Assembly (NCBI RefSeq): GCF_002843385.1
Contig: NZ_MVDE01000038.1
Location: forward strand, 1-48,456
Direction of reading: 5' to 3'
Source of the DNA: Labilibaculum manganireducens
Lineage (GTDB): Bacteria; Bacteroidota; Bacteroidia; Bacteroidales; Marinifilaceae
DNA length: 48,456 nucleotides
In this document: positions 29,658 to 48,456 of the stretch, piece by piece
How the letters are laid out: every line of letters starts with the position of its first letter
Position numbering within the stretch: the stretch's first letter is position 1
Program-made: the position numbers and the translations under genes
The notes under the pieces: model-generated
Told to the model about the DNA's origin: nothing
Seen by the model: the letters and a program-made list of their open reading frames with translations, nothing else
The model's database searches: none

Positions 29658-31886
29658 TTAATTGCCGAGTTCCAGCTGATTTTTCACCAACTGATAATAA
29701 GCTCCCTTCAATTTTGTTAAATCAGCATGAGTTCCTTCCTCAACAATCTTTCCTTTATCCAGAACAATAATTTTGTCGGCACTTCGAACTGTACTCAATC
29801 GGTGGGCAACAACTACTACAGTTCTTCCCTTATTGAATTCCTCCAAATTGTTCATGATTGCCTTTTCGTTGTTGGCATCCAAGGCATTGGTTGCCTCATC
29901 AAAGAACAAAAATTCAGGGTTTTTATAAACTGCCCGTGCAATTAAAACACGTTGCTTTTGTCCTTGACTTAAACCGTGACCATTGGCGCCAATCCGCGTG
30001 TTGTAGCGCAATGGCAAACTTTCTATAAACATATCGATGCAGGCAACCTGAACCGCATACAACAATCTCTTTTTATCGATGAACTCATCACCAACGGCAA
30101 TATTTCTGGCGATGGTATCCGAAAAAATAAACCCATCCTGCATCACCACCCCGCAATTTTGCCGCCACATCGATGAACTGTAATTTTCGAGAGTAACTCC
30201 ACCCAAGGAAATCCGTCCTTTTGTAGTGGGATAAAATCCCAGCATCAGCTTAATTAAAGTCGTTTTTCCACTACCCGATGCACCTACTATTGCTGTTGTT
30301 TTTCCATCCTCTATCTTCAAATTAACATCATCCAAAACCATTTCGGAATGTGGCCCTTCGTACTGAAAGAATACCTTTTCAATATCAATCGCCTTTTCTT
30401 CAGGAATTTCTGTTAAACGATCCTCATTTGGCATTTCTTCCTCTTTCATCTCGTGAATTTCACCCAATCGCTCGAGAGAAATTTTAGCATCCTGCCACGA
30501 ATGAATGAACTGAACCAGATTGTCGAGCGGGGAATTCAATTGACCAATAATGTAAGACACAGCCAACATCATACCCAAGGTCATGCCTCCATCCAATACC
30601 GATTTGGCCGCCAAAAAAGTGATGATAATGTTCTTTGTTTCGTTGAAGAAAATGGAACCTGATACCTGATACTGATTCAAAGCCAGACCTTTGGTTCTCA
30701 CCTTAAACAATTCAGCCTGTATTTGCTCCCACTCCCAACGCTTTTGTTTCTCGCAGTTGTTCAGCTTAATTTCCTGCATTCCGGTAATTAACTGAACCAA
30801 TGAATTTTGATTGTTCGATAACTGAGCGAATCGTTTTCCATCCAATTCTCTTCGTTTTCGTAGAAAAAGATTCACCCATATTAGATACAAAACCGATCCC
30901 ACTGCAAAAACAAAAAAGATTTGTATGTCATAAATCGCCAAAATAATTCCAAAAATCACCAGATTGACCATCGAAAACAGGATGCTTAAGGTTGATGATG
31001 TCAGGAAACTTTCGATTCGGGTATGATCCTGTATCCGCTGCAATAAATCACCGATCATTTTAATATCGAAAAAGCCAATGGGCAACTTCATTAACTTGAT
31101 TAAAAAGTCGGATATTAGTGAAATGTTTATTCGTGTTGAGATGTGTAAAAGTATCCAGCTTCGGATGAATTCCACCGACATTCGGGATATGAACAGTACC
31201 AATTGGGCAATTAAAACCAAATAGATAAAACTCAGATTTTGCGTATTGATACCTACATCGACAATGGATTGGGTAAGGAATGGAAAAATTAATTGCAGCA
31301 TACTGCCAAACAACATACCCAATGCCAACTGCACCAAAAATTTCTTGTAAGGTCTCAAATATTGAAGCAAAAAAGTGAAACTCTTTTTATGAGAAAGATC
31401 CTCGTCGCCCTGAGCGTAAAAATCGGGTGTGGTTTCCACCAACAAACACAATCCTTTCAATTCCCCCTGACTTTGTGTACTTGCCCACGACTTTATAAAT
31501 TCCTCTTTGGTAAATTTTAGCAAACCGGATGCCGGATCGGCAACATGAACCGTAGTTGTCTTCTTTTTCACCTCGATTTTGTGCACTACCACAAAATGAT
31601 TTTGCCCCCAATGGCAAATAGCCGGAAGCGTAGCATCATCCTGTAACTGCTCGTAGCTAATGCGAACGCCCATGGTTCGCAAACCAATACTTTCAGCCGC
31701 ATCGGCAATGCCCAGCATCGAAACTCCCTCACGGGTAATGTGCGATTTGTCGCGTAAGGACTGTAGACTGAAGTTTTTACCAAAGTGAGCGGCTATCATG
31801 CGCAGGCAAGTCGGGCCACAATCCATGGCATCCAATTGGCGGAAATGGGGAAATTTTTTCTTCAAGGCAGAATGGTAGTTAGTCAA
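29658..31886 (-). CDS. Peptidase-containing ABC transporter (C39, double-glycine leader)
   Basis: 742 residues. The N-terminal C39 peptidase has catalytic Cys23 (MDCGPTCLRM), a His in HWGQNHFVVVHKIE and an Asp in VADPASG; it cuts leaders after GG. Six transmembrane segments (about 180-450) precede the nucleotide-binding domain, with Walker A GASGSGKTTL, signature LSQGQKQRVL and Walker B FLFFDEATNALD. It is complete, so it can process and export the GG precursor encoded in the same cluster. No ATG precedes the C39 domain; a TTG at 31886 is the likely start. Confidence 0.95.
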   Translation of the reverse strand: MTNYHSALKKKFPHFRQLDAMDCGPTCLRMIAAHFGKNFSLQSLRDKSHITREGVSMLGIADAAESIGLRTMGVRISYEQLQDDATLPAICHWGQNHFVVVHKIEVKKKTTTVHVADPASGLLKFTKEEFIKSWASTQSQGELKGLCLLVETTPDFYAQGDEDLSHKKSFTFLLQYLRPYKKFLVQLALGMLFGSMLQLIFPFLTQSIVDVGINTQNLSFIYLVLIAQLVLFISRMSVEFIRSWILLHISTRINISLISDFLIKLMKLPIGFFDIKMIGDLLQRIQDHTRIESFLTSSTLSILFSMVNLVIFGIILAIYDIQIFFVFAVGSVLYLIWVNLFLRKRRELDGKRFAQLSNNQNSLVQLITGMQEIKLNNCEKQKRWEWEQIQAELFKVRTKGLALNQYQVSGSIFFNETKNIIITFLAAKSVLDGGMTLGMMLAVSYIIGQLNSPLDNLVQFIHSWQDAKISLERLGEIHEMKEEEMPNEDRLTEIPEEKAIDIEKVFFQYEGPHSEMVLDDVNLKIEDGKTTAIVGASGSGKTTLIKLMLGFYPTTKGRISLGGVTLENYSSSMWRQNCGVVMQDGFIFSDTIARNIAVGDEFIDKKRLLYAVQVACIDMFIESLPLRYNTRIGANGHGLSQGQKQRVLIARAVYKNPEFLFFDEATNALDANNEKAIMNNLEEFNKGRTVVVVAHRLSTVRSADKIIVLDKGKIVEEGTHADLTKLKGAYYQLVKNQLELGN

Positions 31887-34379: not shown

Positions 34380-35525
34380 TTAATTAATTTCCTGACAGAG
34401 ATTGAATTTATCCAATATGAATTCCAATCCTGAAATAGGAGGACATAAATCACAATAATTGCAATTACTACAAGGCTCAACTTTAGATCTAGTCAAAAAC
34501 CAAGTAGATTCATTTGATTTATAACATTCAAGAAAATTATCCTTTATATCATTCTCAAAAAAGTTACCAATAGATTCAGAAAACATATTTGTCCCATAGT
34601 TACCTTTAATATCGATAAATATTTTACCAAAATCATAGGAATTAATCACTCCATTCTTAATAATTTCATGAACCTTATGTTTTTGATTAACAATATCATA
34701 TTCACTTAGAAAAATATTATCCTGGAAAAACACCAAGTTATCCTTAAATCTTGGCTTATAAGTTATCAAGCTATTATATGGCACTATCGAATTAACGTCC
34801 TCGATACAAATAACATATCTATGATTATTTAACAAATCACCTATACTTTCCAATTCATCTTTTCTTTCTAAATAAACCGTAGTATTATACTCATTAAAAG
34901 CTACCCTTGCAGACAAATATAATTCTATCGGTATATGAAACCTAATAATATTCCTATTCTTTATTAGTCCTAGAATAAGTTCAATTTCCTCTATTTTTTT
35001 AGTATAAATATTTACACTTTGTAAACGAGGGAATAAATTGTCATTATTTAAGAGATATTTAATTTTATCAAAAATCCGATTACTATCGTCTTCTAAATTA
35101 TCACAACTAAAAAAATATTGACGTTCATGCTGAGATTTATTGTAAATGTCACTCATTATGAAAGAAAACTCCAATACGTTGCTTAATAATTGTTTCAAAA
35201 TAATTAATGGTTCATCTCTTTGAATAATTGATTTGTTGTTTTCAATTTTGAGACAAGATCTAAGAGGAATAAATAAATCTTTTTCATCTTCAATAATTTC
35301 ACCAAATCCCTCATTAACCAAATTTTGACAATAAGCCGTATTAATTTTATTAATCTGAAAAGCAGCATTATATAGTTTTAGGCTAATTTCAAAATTCTTA
35401 ATAATTTCTGGCTCTAAAATTTCATACTTATTATTAGTAAAGGTATTATATAGAAATATTCTATTTTCGATTTTTTTTACATAAATAAACTGAAACAAAA
35501 CAAAAAATCTATATTTAGAACACAT
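34380..35525 (-). CDS. Pseudo-rSAM protein, GG-Bacteroidales type
   Basis: 381 residues from the ATG at 35525. It resembles the radical SAM partner in length and order, but the CxxxCxxC iron-sulfur triad is absent. The C-terminal motif VEPCSNCNYCDLCPPISGLE keeps cysteines that could hold a cluster. This matches what I recall as the pseudo-rSAM family of the GG-Bacteroidales peptide system (TIGR04150). It overlaps the rSAM gene by 11 bp, so the two are translated together and probably form a complex. Its task is not known. Confidence 0.78.
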   Translation of the reverse strand: MCSKYRFFVLFQFIYVKKIENRIFLYNTFTNNKYEILEPEIIKNFEISLKLYNAAFQINKINTAYCQNLVNEGFGEIIEDEKDLFIPLRSCLKIENNKSIIQRDEPLIILKQLLSNVLEFSFIMSDIYNKSQHERQYFFSCDNLEDDSNRIFDKIKYLLNNDNLFPRLQSVNIYTKKIEEIELILGLIKNRNIIRFHIPIELYLSARVAFNEYNTTVYLERKDELESIGDLLNNHRYVICIEDVNSIVPYNSLITYKPRFKDNLVFFQDNIFLSEYDIVNQKHKVHEIIKNGVINSYDFGKIFIDIKGNYGTNMFSESIGNFFENDIKDNFLECYKSNESTWFLTRSKVEPCSNCNYCDLCPPISGLEFILDKFNLCQEIN

Positions 35526-36741
35526 AATACTCGTCAATTAAATATTTATACAACTTGGGATCGTTTCTAAATTTTTCTAAAAACACACCTTCTGAAATTA
35601 CCTCTTTCGAGAAATTTGGACATTTGGTTAATTCTGCCGGTTCTAACGCTGAAAAAATGCACAATTGACAAAACAATTTTTGTTCACATGCATTGCACAA
35701 TTTTTGAATTTCATCATACCTCTTATTGACTTCTTTAACTATATCTTCATAAAAAATTTGCACTCCTTCTTCTGTTACACATCCAAATTTATAATTTCGA
35801 GATGTTTTCTCACATGGAAACAGCAATCCATCAACACTCATATGAATTTTTTTTGAAAAAGGTATACAAGTAGCTGTTGGATAACGACTTTCATTTTGTG
35901 ATTTTGTAAAAATTAGATCTGAGTAATTTGCATAGACAACACCATCCATCTGTTTAATATATTTATAAACATTATTAATACTGATATCACTTCTACTTTC
36001 TTTGCAAATATTTTTAAACTCATTCACCATACACTCTTCGACCCCAGTTTCACTAACAGATGGTGTTGCAGGTATCTTATCATATTCGATTGATATAAAT
36101 TCTTTTACAGCAGAGACATCATTTCTTCGATGAATAACAGAATTGAAATGTACTTGGCTTTTAAAATAGCTTGTGTAGTTCCTCTGAAGAAAATCGATAT
36201 TTGATTTTACTACATCAAAAGACTCCTTACCATTTGGATAAACCCTATAACTATTATGAATCTTATTTCCATCCAGACTAAGCAATAATCTAAAATTATT
36301 TTGCACAAGATACGCTGCATGCTTTTTTAGAAGTGTACCATTAGTAGTTAGGGCGAAACGCAAGGAGATACTTAAATCACGAGAAATTTCGGCATATTCA
36401 ACAATTTTCTTTATCAAATCCATGCACAATAAAGGTTCTCCCCCATAAAAACCAATATATACAACTCTATCCTTAGCCAATCGTTCGTTTTTTCTAAAAT
36501 TTTCAAATACAAAATCAATTAGCTTATATGCATAGTTTACATTTAAACTTCTTTGCTCTCTTTCACCCTTATTACTGTATAATGGACCAAAACCACAATA
36601 TTCGCACCTTAGATTGCATTTTTCGGTTACATCGAAATTAATCAGATAAGTATTATCAATTGATCTTTTAATTTGTTCTTTCGAAATTCTTCCATTAAAA
36701 TTTATTGTTTTTCTCATTAAAATCTCATCCACATTATTCAT
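35515..36741 (-). CDS. Radical SAM/SPASM peptide maturase
   Basis: 408 residues. The 4Fe-4S motif is FDVTEKCNLRCEYCGFGP with Cys42, Cys46 and Cys49. GFYGGEPLL is the SAM-binding GGE motif. The C-terminal SPASM part has cysteines in CIPFSKKIHMSVDGLLFPCE, CNACEQKLFCQLCIF and CPNF for auxiliary clusters. This fits the GG-Bacteroidales RiPP maturases, likely acting on the 48-residue precursor encoded 84 bp upstream by a carbon-radical (for example thioether) modification; the chemistry is inference. Confidence 0.9.
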   Translation of the reverse strand: MNNVDEILMRKTINFNGRISKEQIKRSIDNTYLINFDVTEKCNLRCEYCGFGPLYSNKGEREQRSLNVNYAYKLIDFVFENFRKNERLAKDRVVYIGFYGGEPLLCMDLIKKIVEYAEISRDLSISLRFALTTNGTLLKKHAAYLVQNNFRLLLSLDGNKIHNSYRVYPNGKESFDVVKSNIDFLQRNYTSYFKSQVHFNSVIHRRNDVSAVKEFISIEYDKIPATPSVSETGVEECMVNEFKNICKESRSDISINNVYKYIKQMDGVVYANYSDLIFTKSQNESRYPTATCIPFSKKIHMSVDGLLFPCEKTSRNYKFGCVTEEGVQIFYEDIVKEVNKRYDEIQKLCNACEQKLFCQLCIFSALEPAELTKCPNFSKEVISEGVFLEKFRNDPKLYKYLIDEYYVF

Positions 36742-36825: not shown

Positions 36826-36972
36826 CTAAGCATCAGCGCTTTTAATACAACCATCAATATCATTTCCATTACATAAACAATGATCATCAGGTGAAGCATC
36901 ACGATCATGTATGCCACCTTTTACATCTTCTAATTCCCTAACTGTAAGTTCTGTTAATTTAATAGTATTCAT
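36826..36972 (-). CDS. RiPP precursor peptide with double-glycine leader
   Basis: 48 residues from the ATG at 36972. The leader is MNTIKLTELTVRELEDVKGG; hydrophobic spacing before GG is the classic C39 cleavage site. The 28-residue core begins IHDRDASPDDH, contains the Cys pair of HCLCNGNDIDGC (three Cys in all) and ends KSADA. It resembles TIGR04149-type natural product precursors, though shorter. It is first in the series precursor, rSAM, pseudo-rSAM, barrel, C39-ABC, so it is the substrate. A longer reading to 37014 starts at a TTG and lacks support. Confidence 0.86.
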   Translation of the reverse strand: MNTIKLTELTVRELEDVKGGIHDRDASPDDHCLCNGNDIDGCIKSADA

Positions 36973-37244: not shown

Positions 37245-37442
37245 TCATTCTAAGATATAGCTTTGAAGCGTTCTAGAATACGAAATAGCAATACCCAAGT
37301 CCTTTATACTATCTAAAATCCGATACAGATTTCGCTCCGAAACACCCAGTTTATCAGATAGTTCATTTGGAGTACCTGTTGATTTATTCTTTGCGAGCAG
37401 CATCACTCTTTCCATTAATTCCTTATTTTGGGTAATATTCAT
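37245..37442 (-). CDS. Small stand-alone helix-turn-helix protein
   Basis: 65 residues, almost entirely one winged-helix/HTH_11-like unit: NELSDKLGVSERNLYRILDS is a recognisable DNA-binding helix pair, and the C-terminus GIAISYSRTLQSYIL forms the wing. No sensor or ligand domain is attached. It is the nearest gene upstream of the RiPP cluster, on the same strand. Its own promoter region carries the bipartite element also found before the sigma gene. A cluster regulator is a reasonable inference. Confidence 0.7.
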   Translation of the reverse strand: MNITQNKELMERVMLLAKNKSTGTPNELSDKLGVSERNLYRILDSIKDLGIAISYSRTLQSYILE

Positions 37443-37471: not shown

Positions 37472-37504
37472 TACTTAATTCCGCAAAAAAAGAAAAGGTA
37501 ACCC
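37472..37504 (-). promoter_or_regulatory. Bipartite GGGTTACCTTTT-N10-GGAATTAAG element before the HTH gene
   Basis: On the minus strand GGGTTACCTTTT (37504-37493) is followed after exactly 10 nt by GGAATTAAGTA, matching GGAATAAAGGG at 8 of 11 positions. The 3' half ends 29 nt before the HTH start codon. The first half and the spacing are identical to the elements at 43644 and 48219. Confidence 0.68.
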
Positions 37505-43180: not shown

Positions 43181-43255
43181 GGGCGATTAGCTCAGTTGGT
43201 TCAGAGCACTTGGTTTACACCCAAGGGGTCATAGGTTCGAATCCTATATCGCCCA
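43181..43255 (+). tRNA. tRNA-Val (anticodon UAC), copy 1
   Basis: 75 nt. The acceptor GGGCGAT pairs with ATCGCCC plus discriminator A. Anticodon arm CTTGG-TTTACAC-CCAAG gives the anticodon TAC. The T arm TAGG-TTCGAATCC is standard. CCA is not encoded. Confidence 0.97.
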
Positions 43256-43284
43256 CTATAAAAAGCATATATTCCCAATAATTC

Positions 43285-43359
43285 GGGCGATTAGCTCAGT
43301 TGGTTCAGAGCACTTGGTTTACACCCAAGGGGTCATAGGTTCGAATCCTATATCGCCCA
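43285..43359 (+). tRNA. tRNA-Val (anticodon UAC), copy 2
   Basis: 75 nt, identical to the upstream copy, starting 29 nt after it, and probably transcribed with it. The duplication is recent or maintained by gene conversion. Confidence 0.97.
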
Positions 43360-43362
43360 CAG

Positions 43363-43643: not shown

Positions 43644-43676
43644 GGGTTACCTTTTGGCCATTAGAGGAATAAAGGG
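43644..43676 (+). promoter_or_regulatory. Bipartite GGGTTACCTTTT-N10-GGAATAAAGGG element before the sigma gene
   Basis: GGGTTACCTTTT (43644-43655), 10 nt, then GGAATAAAGGG (43666-43676), 9 nt before the sigma ATG. Core centres are 16-18 nt apart, as in ECF -35/-10 promoters. An identical pair of halves with the same spacing lies at 48219. The 240 bp between the tRNA terminator and this element contain only AT-rich DNA with poly-T tracts and no ORF. If this is a promoter, the message has a very short or no leader. Confidence 0.75.
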
Positions 43677-43685
43677 ATAGGAAAT

Positions 43686-44252
43686 ATGGATTACACTACG
43701 GAAGCGATACTTGAGGGGATCAGTATGAGCAACAATGATGTATTAAATTACATCTACAAAAAGTTCTTCCCAAGTATTCGGAATTTTATAGAGAACAATA
43801 ATGGTAACGAAGAAGATGCAAGAGATCTTTTTCAAGAAGCGATTATTGTAATCTACCGTAAAATGAAAAAAGAGCCTCTGGTTCTGAATTGTAATTTTAA
43901 AACCTATGTCTATTCAGTTTGTAGGCTTTTATGGTTAAAACAACTTGAGAAAAGAAAAAACAGCAATGAAATTAGTTCAGAAGCTATTTTGGACAATAGA
44001 TTGGATGAAGCAACACAGACCTATTATCAAACCGAAAGGTACAGGCTGTATCAAAAACACTTCAAACTTCTAGGCTCAGATTGTAAGAAAGTACTTCAGT
44101 TAACTCTTGATAAAGTTTCCTTAAAGGAAATATCCGAAATTATGGGATACAAGGGTGAAAAGTATGCAAAAAAGAAAAAGTATCAGTGCAAGCAAGCATT
44201 GATGGATAGTATTAAAAGTGATAATGAATTTAAAGATGTATATGATGAATGA
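43686..44252 (+). CDS. ECF-type RNA polymerase sigma factor
   Basis: 188 residues. Region 2 is visible as NNDVLNYIYKKFFPSIRNFI and EEDARDLFQEAIIVIYRKMK (the core-binding / -10 region), with FKTYVYSVCRLLWLKQLEKR matching the end of region 2. Region 4 (CKKVLQLTLDKVSLKEISEI and the following helix) is present, giving the two-domain group IV layout. The gene after it overlaps by about 10 bp and looks like its anti-sigma factor. The promoter carries the repeated bipartite element, consistent with autoregulation. Confidence 0.9.
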   Translation: MDYTTEAILEGISMSNNDVLNYIYKKFFPSIRNFIENNNGNEEDARDLFQEAIIVIYRKMKKEPLVLNCNFKTYVYSVCRLLWLKQLEKRKNSNEISSEAILDNRLDEATQTYYQTERYRLYQKHFKLLGSDCKKVLQLTLDKVSLKEISEIMGYKGEKYAKKKKYQCKQALMDSIKSDNEFKDVYDE

Positions 44253-44994
44253 AATGAATTTTGACCGTATCGAGGATTTTCTTGACGGTGATCTAACAGA
44301 AAGCCAATTGAAGCAGTTCGAGAAGGAATTACTCGAAGATTCTGATCTTCAAATGGAACTTGACCTTCATATGGAGGTTAATGAGGCCATAATGGAACAA
44401 GACGTTATGGATCTTAGAAACAAATTAGAAGCTATTGAAATACCTTCTAATCCTACTCAGAGGCGAAAGTTGAAATTTTTGACTAAGTGGAATATTGCAG
44501 CGGCATCCCTTGCATTTATAATTGGTTTAGGGAGTTTAATGTACATCGTGAACAATCGGTCTTCTTACTCAAATGATAAAATTTTTAGCAACTACTATAA
44601 ACCATACAACGTTGTAATCAACACTCGTTCGTCGGATATCATGATTGATAATTTATTGGTAACCGCACTAAAAAGCTATGAAACTAAAGATTATCGAACT
44701 GCTTTAACTTTATTCAAAAAAATATTGGATAAAGACAGCACGAACATCACAGGTAATTTTTATTCGGGTATTTCAAATATCGAAATAAATGAGTACGCAA
44801 AAGCGAATAAAAACTTTAGCAGAGTACTAAAGCATAAGAATAACCTGTTTATAGAGCAATCTGAATGGTATCTGGGTTTTTGTTACCTCATGACCAACGA
44901 GAAAGAAAAAGCTCTTAAGCAATTCCATGTAATTGCCCAGGGAAACAGTTTCTATAAGACAAAAGCTTTAGAAATCATTAACAGGCTGGAATAG
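44242..44994 (+). CDS. Anti-sigma-like membrane protein with TPR domain
   Basis: About 250 residues from the ATG at 44242; the in-frame GTG at 44218 would extend into the sigma gene. An acidic N-terminus (RIEDFLDGDLTESQLKQFEK and following) looks like an anti-sigma domain, without the zinc ligands. One membrane segment (WNIAAASLAFIIGLGSLMYI) follows, then TPR-like helices (ALKSYETKDYRTALTLFKKI, FYSGISNIEINEYAKANKNF). Start and stop overlap with the sigma gene (ATGATGAATGA), a classic coupled pair. Role inferred from order and topology. Confidence 0.77.
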   Translation: MMNEMNFDRIEDFLDGDLTESQLKQFEKELLEDSDLQMELDLHMEVNEAIMEQDVMDLRNKLEAIEIPSNPTQRRKLKFLTKWNIAAASLAFIIGLGSLMYIVNNRSSYSNDKIFSNYYKPYNVVINTRSSDIMIDNLLVTALKSYETKDYRTALTLFKKILDKDSTNITGNFYSGISNIEINEYAKANKNFSRVLKHKNNLFIEQSEWYLGFCYLMTNEKEKALKQFHVIAQGNSFYKTKALEIINRLE

Positions 44995-45022
44995 ATCACT
45001 TCATCATTCATCAAAATAAAGT

Positions 45023-45053
45023 AAGCCATCCAATAAAATTGGGTGGCTTTTCC
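45023..45053 (+). terminator. Terminator after the sigma operon
   Basis: AAGCCATCCAA (45023-45033) pairs with TTGGGTGGCTT (45039-45049) with one G-T pair, followed by TTTCC. It ends the plus-strand sigma/anti-sigma transcript facing the convergent CHAT gene. Confidence 0.78.
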
Positions 45054-45256
45054 TATGTATTTAACTTTTTAGTAAACTCTTAACAAGAACTAATAAAACC
45101 CTGGTTGGGAACGATGATAGTTCTAATAGAAATAATTGCTGTTTTCTCTGACTTTAAAATTGCACAGAATAATTAAAATTTATAGAGCCAAAATTCATAT
45201 CTCAACAGAACAAACAGATATCACTATACAATGAAGATAACTAAAACAACCTGCTC

Positions 45257-48100
45257 CTAGGCTACTGCTTTACCTTTGAATTTTTTACGGAAAAATAAGA
45301 ATAAAATTATTCCAACAGAACCAAAAGCAAAGTACATCAGCCTATGAATCAGACCGTCATCATACAAAGGATCAACGTCTCCTAAAGTAACATATCCAGA
45401 CCAAAAATAAGGATGAGATTTTAATGCATCAGCTGTTTTTAAATATTCCAATTTAGCCTGACGAAGAGCATCATCCTTTTTTAATCCATGAGATAAAAAA
45501 GTATAGAAATTACTCATTAGATTTGATCCGGTTTTGTCTTCGACTGTCCATAAAGTCATAATTACACTTGGACAACCTGCATAGAAGAAACCACGTGCTA
45601 AACTCATTACTCCCTCTCCCTTCAATAACTTACCATCACCAGTGTTACAAGCACTTAAAACAACCATTCTTGCATTAAAATTCATGTTGTAAATTTCATG
45701 CGTATTTAGAAGGCCATCTTGTAAAGAATCGGAATTTTGTGTAAAAACAAGTTTTGAATACATCGGATTTTCATCATCAATGATAGTGTGCATTGCCAAA
45801 TGAAGTACATCGTATTCACCCGAATTCGCCTTGAAATTAGCTTCCGTCGCCATATCATCAATAAACAAATCGCCATGAATCACTTTTGATATATTAATAA
45901 CTTCCTCCTTTACTCCAGGCAAAGGATATAATTTATCCCGGTAAGCTCTTTCAGTATATAATATCGAATCATTAACATCGTTATAGGAAGGTGCAAAAGC
46001 TAAAATCGATTTGTTTGAAGAAAATCCATAGCTGCTCGAATGATTTTTGAAACCAAGAGTCGCTGAATTGTGGTAAGTAATTGAATTATATTTTATTAAA
46101 TATTCAAGATTTCTATAATTCATCGTCGTAGTATCCGCTTCCTTTTTCAAAAGCACACCAAATGGAATGTAGGCCATTTTATCATCTGGAACAATGAGAA
46201 GACTTTTACCGGTCAACAAGCTGTCTTTACCATTCAATAAATGTTGATACAGTAAGTAAGCTGATTTTGTATATTTTTGATAATAAGCAACACTATTATT
46301 CGCAAAATCATTCGTTTTCAAACAATTACGAACCTCCTCCAAATGATAATCAAAACTATCTTTGACAATCTTCTCCCGCTCAACTTCAAAACTTGATTTT
46401 GTAATTACAAAAGAAAAAAGTGCTGAATCAGAAATTGAGTATTCAATCAGTAAATCATTATCACTTAACCTGCTCTGTAATTCTTCAATATCGATGGTTT
46501 TGGTATCGTATTTCAGTGCGTAATACTCCGGATAATCCTCCTCAAAACGAAGAACCATTTGATTGTATTCCTCATTCAAATTAAAAAGTACATTTTGCCA
46601 TCCGCTAATTGAATCCCGGTCTGGTGTTTGTTTTTTTCTTTCGTCATGAACCAACTCACGATACTTAGCAATATTCAACTTCAAATTTGTTTCCTTCTCC
46701 TGCAATTCTGTTGAAATACCACCGAAATTTTTTGCATTCACATCGTTTAGTGAAGACTGTAAACTAGCTGATTTTGAACGCTCAGAATATATAAAAGCTT
46801 TCTCTTTGTATTTTACATCTTTTGTAAGTTGATACAATTTTACAGCTATCTCAATTGCCTGATTATACGTTTCTTTTTCATTTTTTGAAAGAGCAAATTT
46901 ACTTTCTTCGTCCTGATAGGCAATTCTAATTTTATCAATAATATCCAAACAAAGATCATAGGTTTGTAAACTGAAATCCAAATCTGAAATACTATTGGTT
47001 TTATCGTATAAATAGCGAAGAGTGACTGCCTTTGGTTTTAAAATTTCTAAAATGGAAAGCTGCGGATCGAGTTCATCCATGGTAGGATTGATGTAAACCG
47101 TACTGTTATTAAAATTATCCAATTCAGAAATAAGTGCTTTTTGATAATATTGTAGTGCGTTTAAATGATCTTTTTTCTTAAAATAGTAATCACCAAAATT
47201 CTTTAAACAATGCGCTGTATCCGGATGTTTATCACCAAAATTCTTCCTGTAAATATCTAAAGCTAAATTTAGGTAAGGTAAAACATTTTTATCATTTTGA
47301 ATTTCATTCTGAAAAACTGCATAGTTTAAATAATAATCACCTAATAAATAATAATCAGTACCATTTGTTTTGATTATTTCCTCAATACTCATTTTATAAT
47401 ATAAATCTGCTTCATCATACCTCTTTAACTTTTTATAACAATTAGCAATGTTATTGAAAGTAGATGAAAAGTATTGTGAGTTACTTTCCTTTTTCAGATT
47501 TAACGTTCTTAAATAATATTTTAATGACTCAGAATAATTAGCTTTTTTATACAAAATCACACCTAAATTATTATATGTTTGAGATAACCATTTTGGGTTA
47601 CCTTCTACTTCCAATAACGATAGTGCTTTTTCGTAATAATTTTGTGCCTTAACTAAATCTCCATAATTATTAAAAATAGTTCCTTTATTCCCATAAATAG
47701 GAATCAATTTATTTGAATCATCCCCAAACTCAGTGATGGTAAAACTCTCGGCAATATCATAAAAATTTAAAGATTTTTTCCAATCTCCCACTCTGTTTAA
47801 TAAGACACCAAAATTCACATAGGTTCGATAAACAAGGTTTTTATCTACTAATCCTCCTTGATTAATAGTCAAAATTGCATTTTCGAAAGACTGAATTGAA
47901 TAATCAAATTCACCTTTTCGTAAGAAATCAACTGCCCGATCAAATTGCTTCTGTAGTAAAGAATCGGGGTTGACTATTTCAGAAGTTTCATGCTTTTCTA
48001 ATTCTAAATTTGACTCAGAAACCATGCTCCCACTAAAAAGAAAGAGAAGAAAAGGAGGGAAAAGAAGAAAAATAAAAATCTTTTTTAGAAAATTTTTCAC
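45257..48100 (-). CDS. Membrane-anchored TPR-CHAT protein
   Basis: 947 residues, starting at GTG (48100). An N-terminal hydrophobic segment (FIFLLFPPFLLFLFSG) is followed by a chain of TPRs over residues about 50-370, for example WLSQTYNNLGVILYKKANYS. A coiled linker comes next, then a C-terminal CHAT (caspase HetF associated with TPRs) domain with HLAMHTIIDDENPMY (His near 770) and VVLSACNTGDGKLLKGEGVM (Cys near 816). A final membrane helix and basic tail (IILFLFFRKKFKGK) anchor it at both ends. CHAT proteins are caspase-like proteases; the substrate is unknown. It converges on the sigma operon and diverges from the GG micro-ORF. Confidence 0.9.
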   Translation of the reverse strand: MKNFLKKIFIFLLFPPFLLFLFSGSMVSESNLELEKHETSEIVNPDSLLQKQFDRAVDFLRKGEFDYSIQSFENAILTINQGGLVDKNLVYRTYVNFGVLLNRVGDWKKSLNFYDIAESFTITEFGDDSNKLIPIYGNKGTIFNNYGDLVKAQNYYEKALSLLEVEGNPKWLSQTYNNLGVILYKKANYSESLKYYLRTLNLKKESNSQYFSSTFNNIANCYKKLKRYDEADLYYKMSIEEIIKTNGTDYYLLGDYYLNYAVFQNEIQNDKNVLPYLNLALDIYRKNFGDKHPDTAHCLKNFGDYYFKKKDHLNALQYYQKALISELDNFNNSTVYINPTMDELDPQLSILEILKPKAVTLRYLYDKTNSISDLDFSLQTYDLCLDIIDKIRIAYQDEESKFALSKNEKETYNQAIEIAVKLYQLTKDVKYKEKAFIYSERSKSASLQSSLNDVNAKNFGGISTELQEKETNLKLNIAKYRELVHDERKKQTPDRDSISGWQNVLFNLNEEYNQMVLRFEEDYPEYYALKYDTKTIDIEELQSRLSDNDLLIEYSISDSALFSFVITKSSFEVEREKIVKDSFDYHLEEVRNCLKTNDFANNSVAYYQKYTKSAYLLYQHLLNGKDSLLTGKSLLIVPDDKMAYIPFGVLLKKEADTTTMNYRNLEYLIKYNSITYHNSATLGFKNHSSSYGFSSNKSILAFAPSYNDVNDSILYTERAYRDKLYPLPGVKEEVINISKVIHGDLFIDDMATEANFKANSGEYDVLHLAMHTIIDDENPMYSKLVFTQNSDSLQDGLLNTHEIYNMNFNARMVVLSACNTGDGKLLKGEGVMSLARGFFYAGCPSVIMTLWTVEDKTGSNLMSNFYTFLSHGLKKDDALRQAKLEYLKTADALKSHPYFWSGYVTLGDVDPLYDDGLIHRLMYFAFGSVGIILFLFFRKKFKGKAVA

Positions 48101-48218
48101 GCTCAGGTTTGGTTTTGTAATATTCTCACTAATAATCAGTTAAACCAATCATCAAGGCTAACAAACACCTAAATATAGGGCATTTTTTTTATTTTTTTAA
48201 AAAATAATTGTGTTTCCA

Positions 48219-48251
48219 GGGTTACCTTTTTCAAAAAAGGGGAATAAAGGG
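48219..48251 (+). promoter_or_regulatory. Bipartite GGGTTACCTTTT-N10-GGAATAAAGGG element before the GG micro-ORF
   Basis: GGGTTACCTTTT (48219-48230), spacer 48231-48240, GGAATAAAGGG (48241-48251). Both halves and the spacing are identical to those at 43644. The micro-ORF ATG is 55 nt downstream. Confidence 0.75.
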
Positions 48252-48305: not shown

Positions 48306-48407
48306 ATGAAAAATTTTGAAATAGTATCTCAGGAAGAATTACAGAACATCAAAGGTGGTGTAAACGAAATGACCGATAAATCAATATGTGACGATTACAT
48401 CGTGTAA
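48306..48407 (+). CDS. Small double-glycine leader peptide
   Basis: 33 residues. The leader MKNFEIVSQEELQNIKGG has the spacing of C39-type leaders (EEL-x-x-I-K-GG), like the KGG of the RiPP precursor at 36826. The core is 15 residues, VNEMTDKSICDDYIV, with one Cys. The stop is TAA at 48405. The following 49 bases to the window end hold no further gene. It is divergent from the TPR-CHAT gene and directly controlled by the repeated bipartite element. Confidence 0.75.
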   Translation: MKNFEIVSQEELQNIKGGVNEMTDKSICDDYIV

Positions 48408-48456
48408 GTAACCAAATAGACCATATTCCATTTTCCTAATAAAATAAACCTAGTAG

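Follow-up and report, generated by a model that had tools for sequence, protein, structure and literature searches.

Genes and motif sites of the locus

A bipartite DNA element, GGGTTACCTTTT-N10-GGAATAAAGGG, occurs three times in a 48,456-nucleotide (nt) stretch of the Labilibaculum manganireducens genome (contig NZ_MVDE01000038.1; the whole stretch is hereafter called the window). Two of these sites are part of a locus that encodes an extracytoplasmic function (ECF)-type sigma factor, a membrane protein with tetratricopeptide repeats (TPRs), a TPR-CHAT protein, and a very small peptide with a double-glycine (GG) leader. The third site precedes a gene for a helix-turn-helix (HTH) protein elsewhere in the window. 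These features are as follows.

43644..43676, + strand: motif site of the sigma gene (candidate -35/-10 promoter), 0 mismatches, ending 9 nt before the ATG
43686..44252, + strand: ECF-type sigma factor, 188 aa (Pfam Sigma70_r2, 24.5 bits, cut-off 24; TIGR02937, 59 bits, cut-off 42.9)
44245..44994, + strand: membrane TPR protein, probable anti-sigma factor, overlapping the sigma gene
45257..48100, - strand: TPR-CHAT caspase-like protein, 947 aa (Pfam CHAT, 2.9e-57)
48219..48251, + strand: motif site of the GG micro-open reading frame (ORF) array, 0 mismatches, 54 nt before the micro-ORF
48306..48407, + strand: GG-leader micro-ORF, 33 aa (MKNFEIVSQEELQNIKGG / VNEMTDKSICDDYIV; TIGR01847 bacteriocin_sig, 19.4, cut-off 15.7)
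37472..37504, - strand: motif site of the HTH gene, 3 mismatches, second half 8/11, heading a radical-SAM GG-peptide locus

The sigma protein scores above the cut-offs for sigma region 2 and for the sigma-70/ECF family, and it belongs to the ECF sigma factors. At the level of sequence, a candidate autoregulatory -35/-10 element lies upstream of its gene.

A first-pass annotation of this DNA had reported the three sites, with the first half and the N10 spacer length identical in all of them and the second half identical in two and matching at 8/11 positions in the third. A scan of the window confirms these particulars. At three or fewer mismatches, the three sites are found and none elsewhere in the window, and none of the three overlaps a recognized gene in the list of ORFs. 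In 100 dinucleotide shuffles of the window, no sites were found (expected 0.00). A lone sequence resembling the first half, GGGTTACCTTCT at 47595 inside the CHAT gene, was seen by eye; it has no second half and was not counted.

The scan of the complete genome that the annotation had proposed lists five to six sites with their downstream genes, so that the set exceeds the three reported. Five sites at three or fewer mismatches are found in the assembly (5,319,962 bp) versus none for the reversed pattern. A shorter form of the motif (20 fixed bases, at most three mismatches) finds a sixth, and its reversed control has one match. A looser pattern adds two more sites (on contigs C7 and C51, two mismatches), and in that case the reversed control has three matches. 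In 6 Mb of sequence simulated with a second-order Markov model of the window (one run), there are no sites at three or fewer mismatches.

Downstream of the six sites are the ECF sigma gene, the GG-peptide array, a gingipain-type protease of family C25, a small HTH gene in each of two cases, and a candidate short RNA that ends in a terminator. The fourth site is a perfect motif at the end of the contig numbered C25, and this end overlaps the start of contig C62 exactly over 127 nt. On C62, a homolog (93% identical) of a C25-family protease starts at base 132, which is 105 nt below the motif; in relatives, the protease start is 105-109 nt below it. The fifth site (one mismatch, contig C42) is between genes that resemble, by eye, aminotransferase and EamA genes, and is followed about 90 nt below by a hairpin and T-run. 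The sixth (three mismatches, contig C15) is directly before the second small HTH gene. The shuffles, the reversed control in the genome, and the simulated 6 Mb rule out chance as an explanation for the motif. Noise in coding sequences is also ruled out, because each of the six sites precedes a gene or short RNA. Thus, the scatter of random coding-sequence matches that would have told against the first-pass proposal is not seen in this genome at the thresholds used.

Anatomy of the probable promoter

Regions around matches in the sampled genomes of the same family comprise 115 distinct sites after identical ones were merged, with the L. manganireducens sites on C42 and C15 excluded. The 113 sites with enough flanking sequence share a conserved GGGTTACCTTTT, ten positions that lean toward A/T, GGAATAAAGGG, and a few bases after it. 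A-rich and T-rich tracts are found about 15-27 nt upstream of the motif. The -35 part can be written as GGGTTACC(TTTT) and the -10 part as GGAATAAAGGG, and 15 nt separate the GGTTACC and GAATAAA cores. These cores, their spacing, and the upstream A/T tracts support the earlier suggestion that the half-site separation fits the -35/-10 geometry of an ECF promoter.

The distance from the motif to the sigma ATG is 9 nt in 18/18 distinct family sigma sites. At other targets the distance to the start codon is wider and variable, reaching more than 100 nt; tabulated start distances of 0 are an artefact of automatic TTG starts. Terminator-like hairpins are found within 180 nt below 14 of the 115 sites, at 41-122 nt from the motif, although this hairpin count has no chance control.

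The element might instead be an RNA leader element or a dispersed repeat, since it sits on the sense strand upstream of genes. However, the 10 nt in the middle vary almost freely in sequence but not in length, the distance to the start ranges from 9 to more than 100 nt, and, A/T tracts excepted, conservation falls to background within a few bases of the motif. This explanation is hardly credible. Another alternative is an ordinary transcription-factor site, bound for example by the 65-aa HTH proteins, whose own genes are below the element. The asymmetry of the element, its fixed spacing, its position above terminators at 14 sites, and its constant distance from the sigma ATG all argue against such a site. 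Moreover, it precedes sigma homologs across the order, and no such HTH gene was noticed among the order-level sites. The reading as an operator for HTH proteins was rejected, and a transcription-factor site of any kind is very improbable.

Association of the motif with the sigma factor

The motif is found in 25 of 56 sampled genomes of the family, whose named members are Labilibaculum and Marinifilum; the reversed pattern has two matches in all 56. Orthologs of the sigma factor (54-100% identity) are present in 22 of these genomes, and a 23rd match, at 27% identity (G048), was not counted. All 22 genomes with an ortholog have the motif, versus 3/34 without one (Fisher p 1e-12, uncorrected for phylogeny). 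Of the 22 genomes with an ortholog, 21 have a site with three or fewer mismatches at the sigma gene itself. In the remaining genome (G025), the sigma site has four mismatches and is 8 nt before the ATG, and the sole site with three or fewer mismatches precedes an HTH gene.

The motif also drifts together with the sigma gene. Outside of one genus, g2, 91 of 97 sites have C at position 8. Within g2, whose sigma factor is only 63-65% identical, this position is C in none of the 18 sites from five genomes (16 T and 2 A). Because the sites belong to unrelated target genes, their joint drift is as expected of one trans-acting reader.

Matches to the sigma protein at E <= 1e-12 are found in 151 of 393 sampled genomes of the order, including L. 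manganireducens. The upstream test at this level used the 29 best other loci, of which 28 have enough upstream DNA; these homologs are 43-58% identical to the sigma factor, and 83 nt at the start codon were examined. The -35 half, GGTTACCTTTT, is present at two or fewer mismatches in 27 of the 28 (22 with at most one mismatch and 13 perfect), and the chance expectation, calculated from the rest of the same loci, is 0.018 per gene. A relaxed motif is found in 22/28 order-level genomes with a homolog versus 2/15 without. Several of the six missed genomes have a variant -35 such as TATTACC before the sigma gene. TATTACC is found at this position in L206 (G310), L184, and L187, and a divergently oriented gene in L206 shares it.

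More distant sigma relatives, from the class level (L280-L290), have the half-site at two or fewer mismatches within about 100 nt upstream in 10/11 cases, a count that has no separate control. In these loci of 2.4-3.5 kb, CHAT genes were detected in L280 and L281 only, and others may lie outside the loci. The other nine relatives (33-40% identity) were not counted as the same system. L282-L290 mostly have GGGTTAC upstream, and a divergent copy, GGTAACCC, was seen by eye about 30-50 nt away in L285, L286, L288, and L290. The divergent copy suggests a divergent target gene.

The L. manganireducens genome has 28 sigma-70-family genes above the TIGR02937 cut-off, so a different sigma factor might read the promoter, with the present sigma gene merely one of its targets. 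Also, ECF promoters can overlap, and the available part of one paper says so of Bacillus subtilis (PMC9723704). However, none of the other 27 genes is at a motif site found in the genome scans; the presence of the motif tracks this one ortholog, and variants of the motif track its lineages. A different reader is thus very unlikely, and the sigma factor encoded next to the motif very probably recognizes it. We conclude, with a probability of roughly 0.85, that the element is an autoregulated ECF promoter and that the window's sites are three members of its regulon. Co-occurrence of motif and ortholog, conservation across the order, the joint loss of C at position 8, the ECF-like geometry, and the terminators shortly below 14 sites argue for the first-pass proposal that the sigma gene activates itself and GG-peptide loci. 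The anti-sigma candidate and CHAT genes, the protease, the short RNA, and the tandem nature of the peptide go beyond that proposal.

Genes downstream of the motif

The HTH gene in the window heads a cluster for a candidate ribosomally synthesized and post-translationally modified peptide (RiPP), and an exporter gene is found further downstream.

37245..37442, - strand: small HTH protein, 65 aa, probable cluster-situated regulator (Pfam HTH_11, 26.9, cut-off 25)
36826..36972, - strand: GG-leader RiPP precursor candidate, 48 aa, recognized from its sequence, with no Pfam or NCBIfam match
35515..36741, - strand: radical SAM/SPASM peptide maturase (GG_samocin_CFB; TIGR04148, 343.1 bits, above the cut-off of 300)
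34380..35537, - strand: pseudo-radical-SAM-like partner (TIGR04150, 87.1 bits, below the cut-off of 250)
29658..31886, - strand: C39-peptidase ABC exporter that may export GG peptides and cleave their leaders (Pfam Peptidase_C39 and ABC)

The genome has four C39 matches, one of which is this gene. HTH genes are preceded by the motif in other genomes of the family as well. In L126 (G040 C32), the motif and HTH gene are followed by genes that look, by eye, like those for a lanthipeptide cyclase and dehydratase. Units of this kind may head RiPP clusters of several classes.

Automatic sorting of the 115 family sites by downstream gene gives 18 sigma genes, 23 GG peptides, 13 HTH genes, 41 other genes, and 20 without an assignment. 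Inspection raises the HTH sites to 15: L050 was dropped (its HTH-like frame is 367 nt away), and L129, L132, and L138 were added from the unassigned class. The largest group among the other genes has 11 sites, with ten proteins of 982-983 aa and one of 558, and its representative is a C25 peptidase with a propeptide and a sorting tail of the type IX secretion system (T9SS). Further groups include a lipoprotein group with a SprT-like match and a subtilase.

The 14 sites with terminators were drawn from the other genes (six) and the unassigned sites (eight), and form two alignable groups of 10 and 4. In candidate short-RNA family A, the motif is followed by about 90 nt and then by a GC hairpin and T-run, and the RNAs adjoin an EamA-like gene in several genomes. 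In family B, the core TGTATGTAGT is invariant, and the terminator follows the motif at 41-89 nt. The members are as follows.

L006:9868-9997 (G000 C42), - strand: short-RNA family A, L. manganireducens member
L084, L094, L101, L104, L108, L115, L122, L147, L154, and L156: short-RNA family A, other members
L061:720-819, L127:3371-3470, L133:685-784, and L136:652-751: candidate short-RNA family B

Scans of L094, L061, and L004 for the two families gave no Rfam matches at E<=0.1. A structure of family A beyond the terminator is unsupported, because consensus folding gave no compensatory pairs. A short reading frame is common to L006, L084, and L094, and none was seen in other members; family A RNAs may thus encode a peptide.

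Tandem GG peptides and the conserved locus

The peptide at 48306 has a double-glycine leader and the genome encodes a C39 exporter, as is typical of GG-leader secreted peptides, to which the peptide is predicted to belong. Because relatives have tandem arrays, the micro-ORF is probably the first of several units, with the array truncated at the contig end. The contig ends at 48456, just after this first unit (window positions 48306-48456), and in relatives G028, G032, and G038 the motif site of the array is also within about 600 nt of a contig end. All four assemblies probably break inside the array.

Sixteen arrays were examined, two of them from the same record, and each has 2-6 copies of the peptide. 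Core identity averages 95% within an array (106 pairs) versus 45% between arrays of the family (1,553 pairs). Most cores end in acidic and then hydrophobic residues, for example CDDILV, EDCIV, EEDIIL, and DDDIWL. The peptides are tandem, nearly identical within a genome, and divergent between species, a pattern that resembles that of pheromones.

The order of genes in the family is the sigma gene, the overlapping membrane TPR protein, the convergent TPR-CHAT gene, the motif, the tandem GG array, and a protein with HisKA and HATPase domains. Among seven loci with mapped gene order, the L074 flank lacks CHAT and the array, and L076, from another family, lacks the GG array. Homologs of the TPR protein and of CHAT were detected in 19 and 15, respectively, of 20 order-level regions, some of which are truncated at the end of a contig. 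The kinase of L063, the representative analyzed with Pfam, has HisKA and HATPase only, and proteins whose first residues are similar follow the motif in L190, L192, L200, L203, and L208. GG peptides follow the motif in L193, L194, L196, L201, and L204. Genes for C39-ABC and HlyD proteins adjoin the locus in L194, L200, and L201, which represent two families (the Pfam assignment is for L194 only). The L200 locus (G199 C84) has the sigma gene, TPR protein, CHAT homolog, tandem GG peptides of 62-64 aa, and kinase-like, C39-ABC-like, and HlyD-like genes all together. This compact arrangement makes it a model for experiments.

Alternatively, the regulon might respond to stress on the envelope or on protein quality. 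Under such a response, the GG peptides, RiPPs, and secreted proteases would be effectors, such as bacteriocins or agents of nutrient scavenging, and would carry no signal. CHAT would then sense damaged envelope proteins, as DegS does in Escherichia coli. The outputs, which include secreted C25, S8, and SprT-like proteins, lipoprotein-like N-termini, and short RNAs, recall the sigma-E response, and in many order-level loci the sigma factor, TPR protein, and CHAT mostly stay while no GG peptides are below the motif. Immunity-coupled bacteriocins could also show the same homogeneity within arrays and divergence between them. However, no chaperone or outer-membrane assembly family is found among the downstream representatives analyzed with Pfam, which are part of all representatives. 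In addition, most sigma loci of the family include a peptide array, whose cores are homogenized within species and divergent between them, as a signal would predict. A stress response without a peptide signal has somewhat less than an even chance of being correct, and a signaling role for the GG peptide itself can be offered only tentatively.

The anti-sigma candidate and the CHAT protein

The membrane TPR protein comprises an N-terminal helical region, one transmembrane segment (about residues 83-103), and a C-terminal TPR domain. Its position, transmembrane segment, and predicted helical N-terminus fit an anti-sigma factor, and this function is likely. The protein of the window has no anti-sigma match in Pfam or NCBIfam; a homolog (L205:9004-9762) passes the Pfam zf-HC2 cut-off (24/22.2). 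A fold search with the candidate found TPR domains among the 50 rows listed and was uninformative on the anti-sigma domain.

The hydropathy of the CHAT protein reveals an N-terminal hydrophobic segment and a C-terminal transmembrane segment, by which the protein probably faces the periplasm. His771 and Cys818 are invariant in 12/12 aligned CHAT proteins. From their positions in the HLAMH and SACNTG motifs, we take these residues to be the catalytic dyad. The structure model is of moderate quality, with a mean predicted local distance difference test score (pLDDT) of 66. Among the 50 best Foldseek matches listed for this model, six are Craspase TPR-CHAT structures, aligned over 696-716 columns with low template-modeling scores (TM-scores) of 0.23-0.41. 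Most of the other listed matches are TPR domains, and those to SPINDLY, LGN, and kinesin TPRs were set aside as generic. A profile search of the PDB with the CHAT alignment gave generic TPR proteins among 60 of 92 rows, including the peptide-binding Rap-type phosphatases and NprR, which were judged too generic to use.

Comparison with known systems

In Craspase, according to the available part of its description, an ECF sigma factor has an inhibitor that a TPR-CHAT protease cleaves (PMC10028731). This system (Craspase/CASP-sigma) belongs to type III-E CRISPR and includes the TPR-CHAT protein Csx29, Csx30, and CASP-sigma; as far as that part of the paper goes, it shares with the present locus a TPR-CHAT protein, an ECF sigma factor, an inhibitor candidate, and sigma sites within the locus (PMC10028731). 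Unlike in Craspase, the CHAT protein described here has N-terminal hydrophobic and C-terminal transmembrane segments, and the inhibitor candidate has a transmembrane segment and TPRs. Also unlike Craspase, there are GG peptides, exporters, and a histidine kinase, and the targets occur at places across the genome. Among the proteins scanned with Pfam, no Cas protein was recognized, although no search aimed at CRISPR or Cas was made.

The streptococcal ComC-ComAB-ComX system combines a GG-leader peptide, a C39 exporter, an alternative sigma factor, and positive feedback. The first three are also present here, and positive feedback is only proposed. In contrast to that system, the sigma factor is of the ECF type, the representative kinase has only HisKA and HATPase domains, and peptide sensing is a proposal.

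The RpoE-RseA-DegS system of E. coli consists of an ECF sigma factor, a membrane anti-sigma factor, and its protease-triggered release, with autoregulation and small RNAs. The present system resembles it in having an ECF sigma factor, a membrane anti-sigma candidate, a proposed release by a protease, probable autoregulation, and candidate small RNAs. It differs in the CHAT fold of the protease, the TPRs of the anti-sigma candidate, the GG-peptide and RiPP outputs, and the promoter. RseA and DegS are mentioned in the available part of the Craspase paper (PMC10028731).

In Porphyromonas gingivalis, an ECF sigma factor controls T9SS genes, as stated in the part of the source at hand (PMC9723704). 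That factor and the flavobacterial ECF promoter class SM6 of Flavobacterium psychrophilum are comparable to the present system, to the extent that this source describes them, in that an ECF sigma factor of Bacteroidota has an anti-sigma neighbor (here a candidate) and there is a link to T9SS, here through the C25 protease with its T9SS tail. Membership in the SM6-type promoters was rejected, because SM6 has a CGT box in the -10 region in the same available text (PMC9723704), and the present element has GGAATAAAGGG, GGTTACC, and GAATAAA.

Like GG_samocin_CFB loci (TIGR04148) and RiPP clusters of Bacteroidales, the cluster in the window has a GG precursor, a radical SAM maturase, and a C39 exporter. 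An HTH gene occurs in one reported Bacteroidales cluster, as seen in the available part of that report (PMC10352776). In contrast to that paper, in whose main text as available the word sigma does not occur (PMC10352776), the HTH genes of clusters described here are placed under an ECF-type promoter.

Proposed mechanism

The sigma gene would drive its own transcription from the motif promoter, probably with an almost leaderless mRNA. In L. manganireducens its other targets would be the GG-peptide array, two small HTH genes (one of them fronting the radical-SAM GG-peptide cluster), the secreted C25 protease, and the terminator-ended short RNA. In relatives within the family, lipoprotein genes would be added to these targets, and the peptide array is followed by a histidine kinase that lacks a sensor. 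The overlapping TPR protein would hold the sigma factor at the membrane. Cleavage by CHAT, triggered by a peptide or by stress, might then destroy the anti-sigma factor and free the sigma factor, a step proposed by analogy with Craspase, whose TPR-CHAT protease acts on such an inhibitor. By this analogy, there is about an even chance that CHAT acts on the anti-sigma candidate. Exported, C39-processed peptides would be the best candidate ligand to close a positive feedback loop.

A more specific and doubtful version is a peptide circuit of Bacteroidota, in which GG peptides, encoded in tandem and then exported and trimmed by a C39 transporter, bind the TPRs of the envelope-located CHAT protease or of the anti-sigma factor, so that the anti-sigma factor is destroyed and the sigma factor freed. 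Binding would be through the acidic, hydrophobic-ended C-termini (DDILV, EEDIIL, and DDDIWL), and the freed sigma factor would raise the expression of the peptide, kinase, RiPP, protease, and small-RNA genes.

Several observations weigh against the autoregulated promoter and the mechanism built on it. The motif is found without a detected ortholog in G030 (five sites; 94% complete, about 1,180 contigs), in G031 (three sites; 63% complete), and in G006 (one site with three mismatches). Some three-mismatch sites in the family may be due to chance, given the two matches of the reversed pattern in 56 genomes. The genomes behind the 22/22 pattern cluster on the tree, and the number of independent events is smaller than the count suggests. 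In the order, the relaxed pattern missed 6/28 genomes with homologs, and its reversed control has six matches in 43 genomes. CHAT was not found in 5/20 order-level regions, nor in the L074 flank or in 11 kb around the sigma gene of G025. Many order-level loci showed no GG peptides downstream of the motif, and the peptide is thus not obligatory. The N-terminus of the anti-sigma candidate and the catalytic part of CHAT are modeled at low confidence. Finally, most of the other single representatives of downstream genes that were analyzed have no Pfam family, so the purpose of the regulon is not obvious.

Implications

From the motif, a regulon of an ECF sigma factor of Bacteroidota can be predicted and tested, and its promoter consensus is unusually strong. 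One putative regulator would control RiPP clusters, candidate small RNAs, and a T9SS protease of the gingipain type. The locus brings together an ECF sigma factor, its candidate anti-sigma factor (a membrane TPR protein), a caspase-like protease, and GG peptides for export. This suggests that control of an ECF sigma factor by TPR-CHAT, as in Craspase, also takes the form of a switch in the envelope that is encoded on the chromosome. We know of no established peptide pheromone in Bacteroidota, and the GG peptides are a candidate signal. If true, the peptide circuit would correspond to the Craspase sigma switch, but in the envelope and outside of CRISPR, and would represent a Gram-negative analogue of competence signaling in streptococci.

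Among the titles listed from open-licence literature, none names the promoter or the locus. The main threat to novelty is that the ECF group of this sigma factor may have a published predicted motif. In the same literature, nothing was found for an ECF sigma factor with CHAT in Bacteroidetes, only Craspase for CHAT with an anti-sigma and an ECF factor, and only CRISPR papers for TPR-CHAT with a sigma factor. Among the matches listed there for the string GGTTACCTTTT, no title is about bacteria.

Two tandem tRNA-Val genes (anticodon tac) are located upstream of the sigma gene, at positions 43181-43360 of the window.

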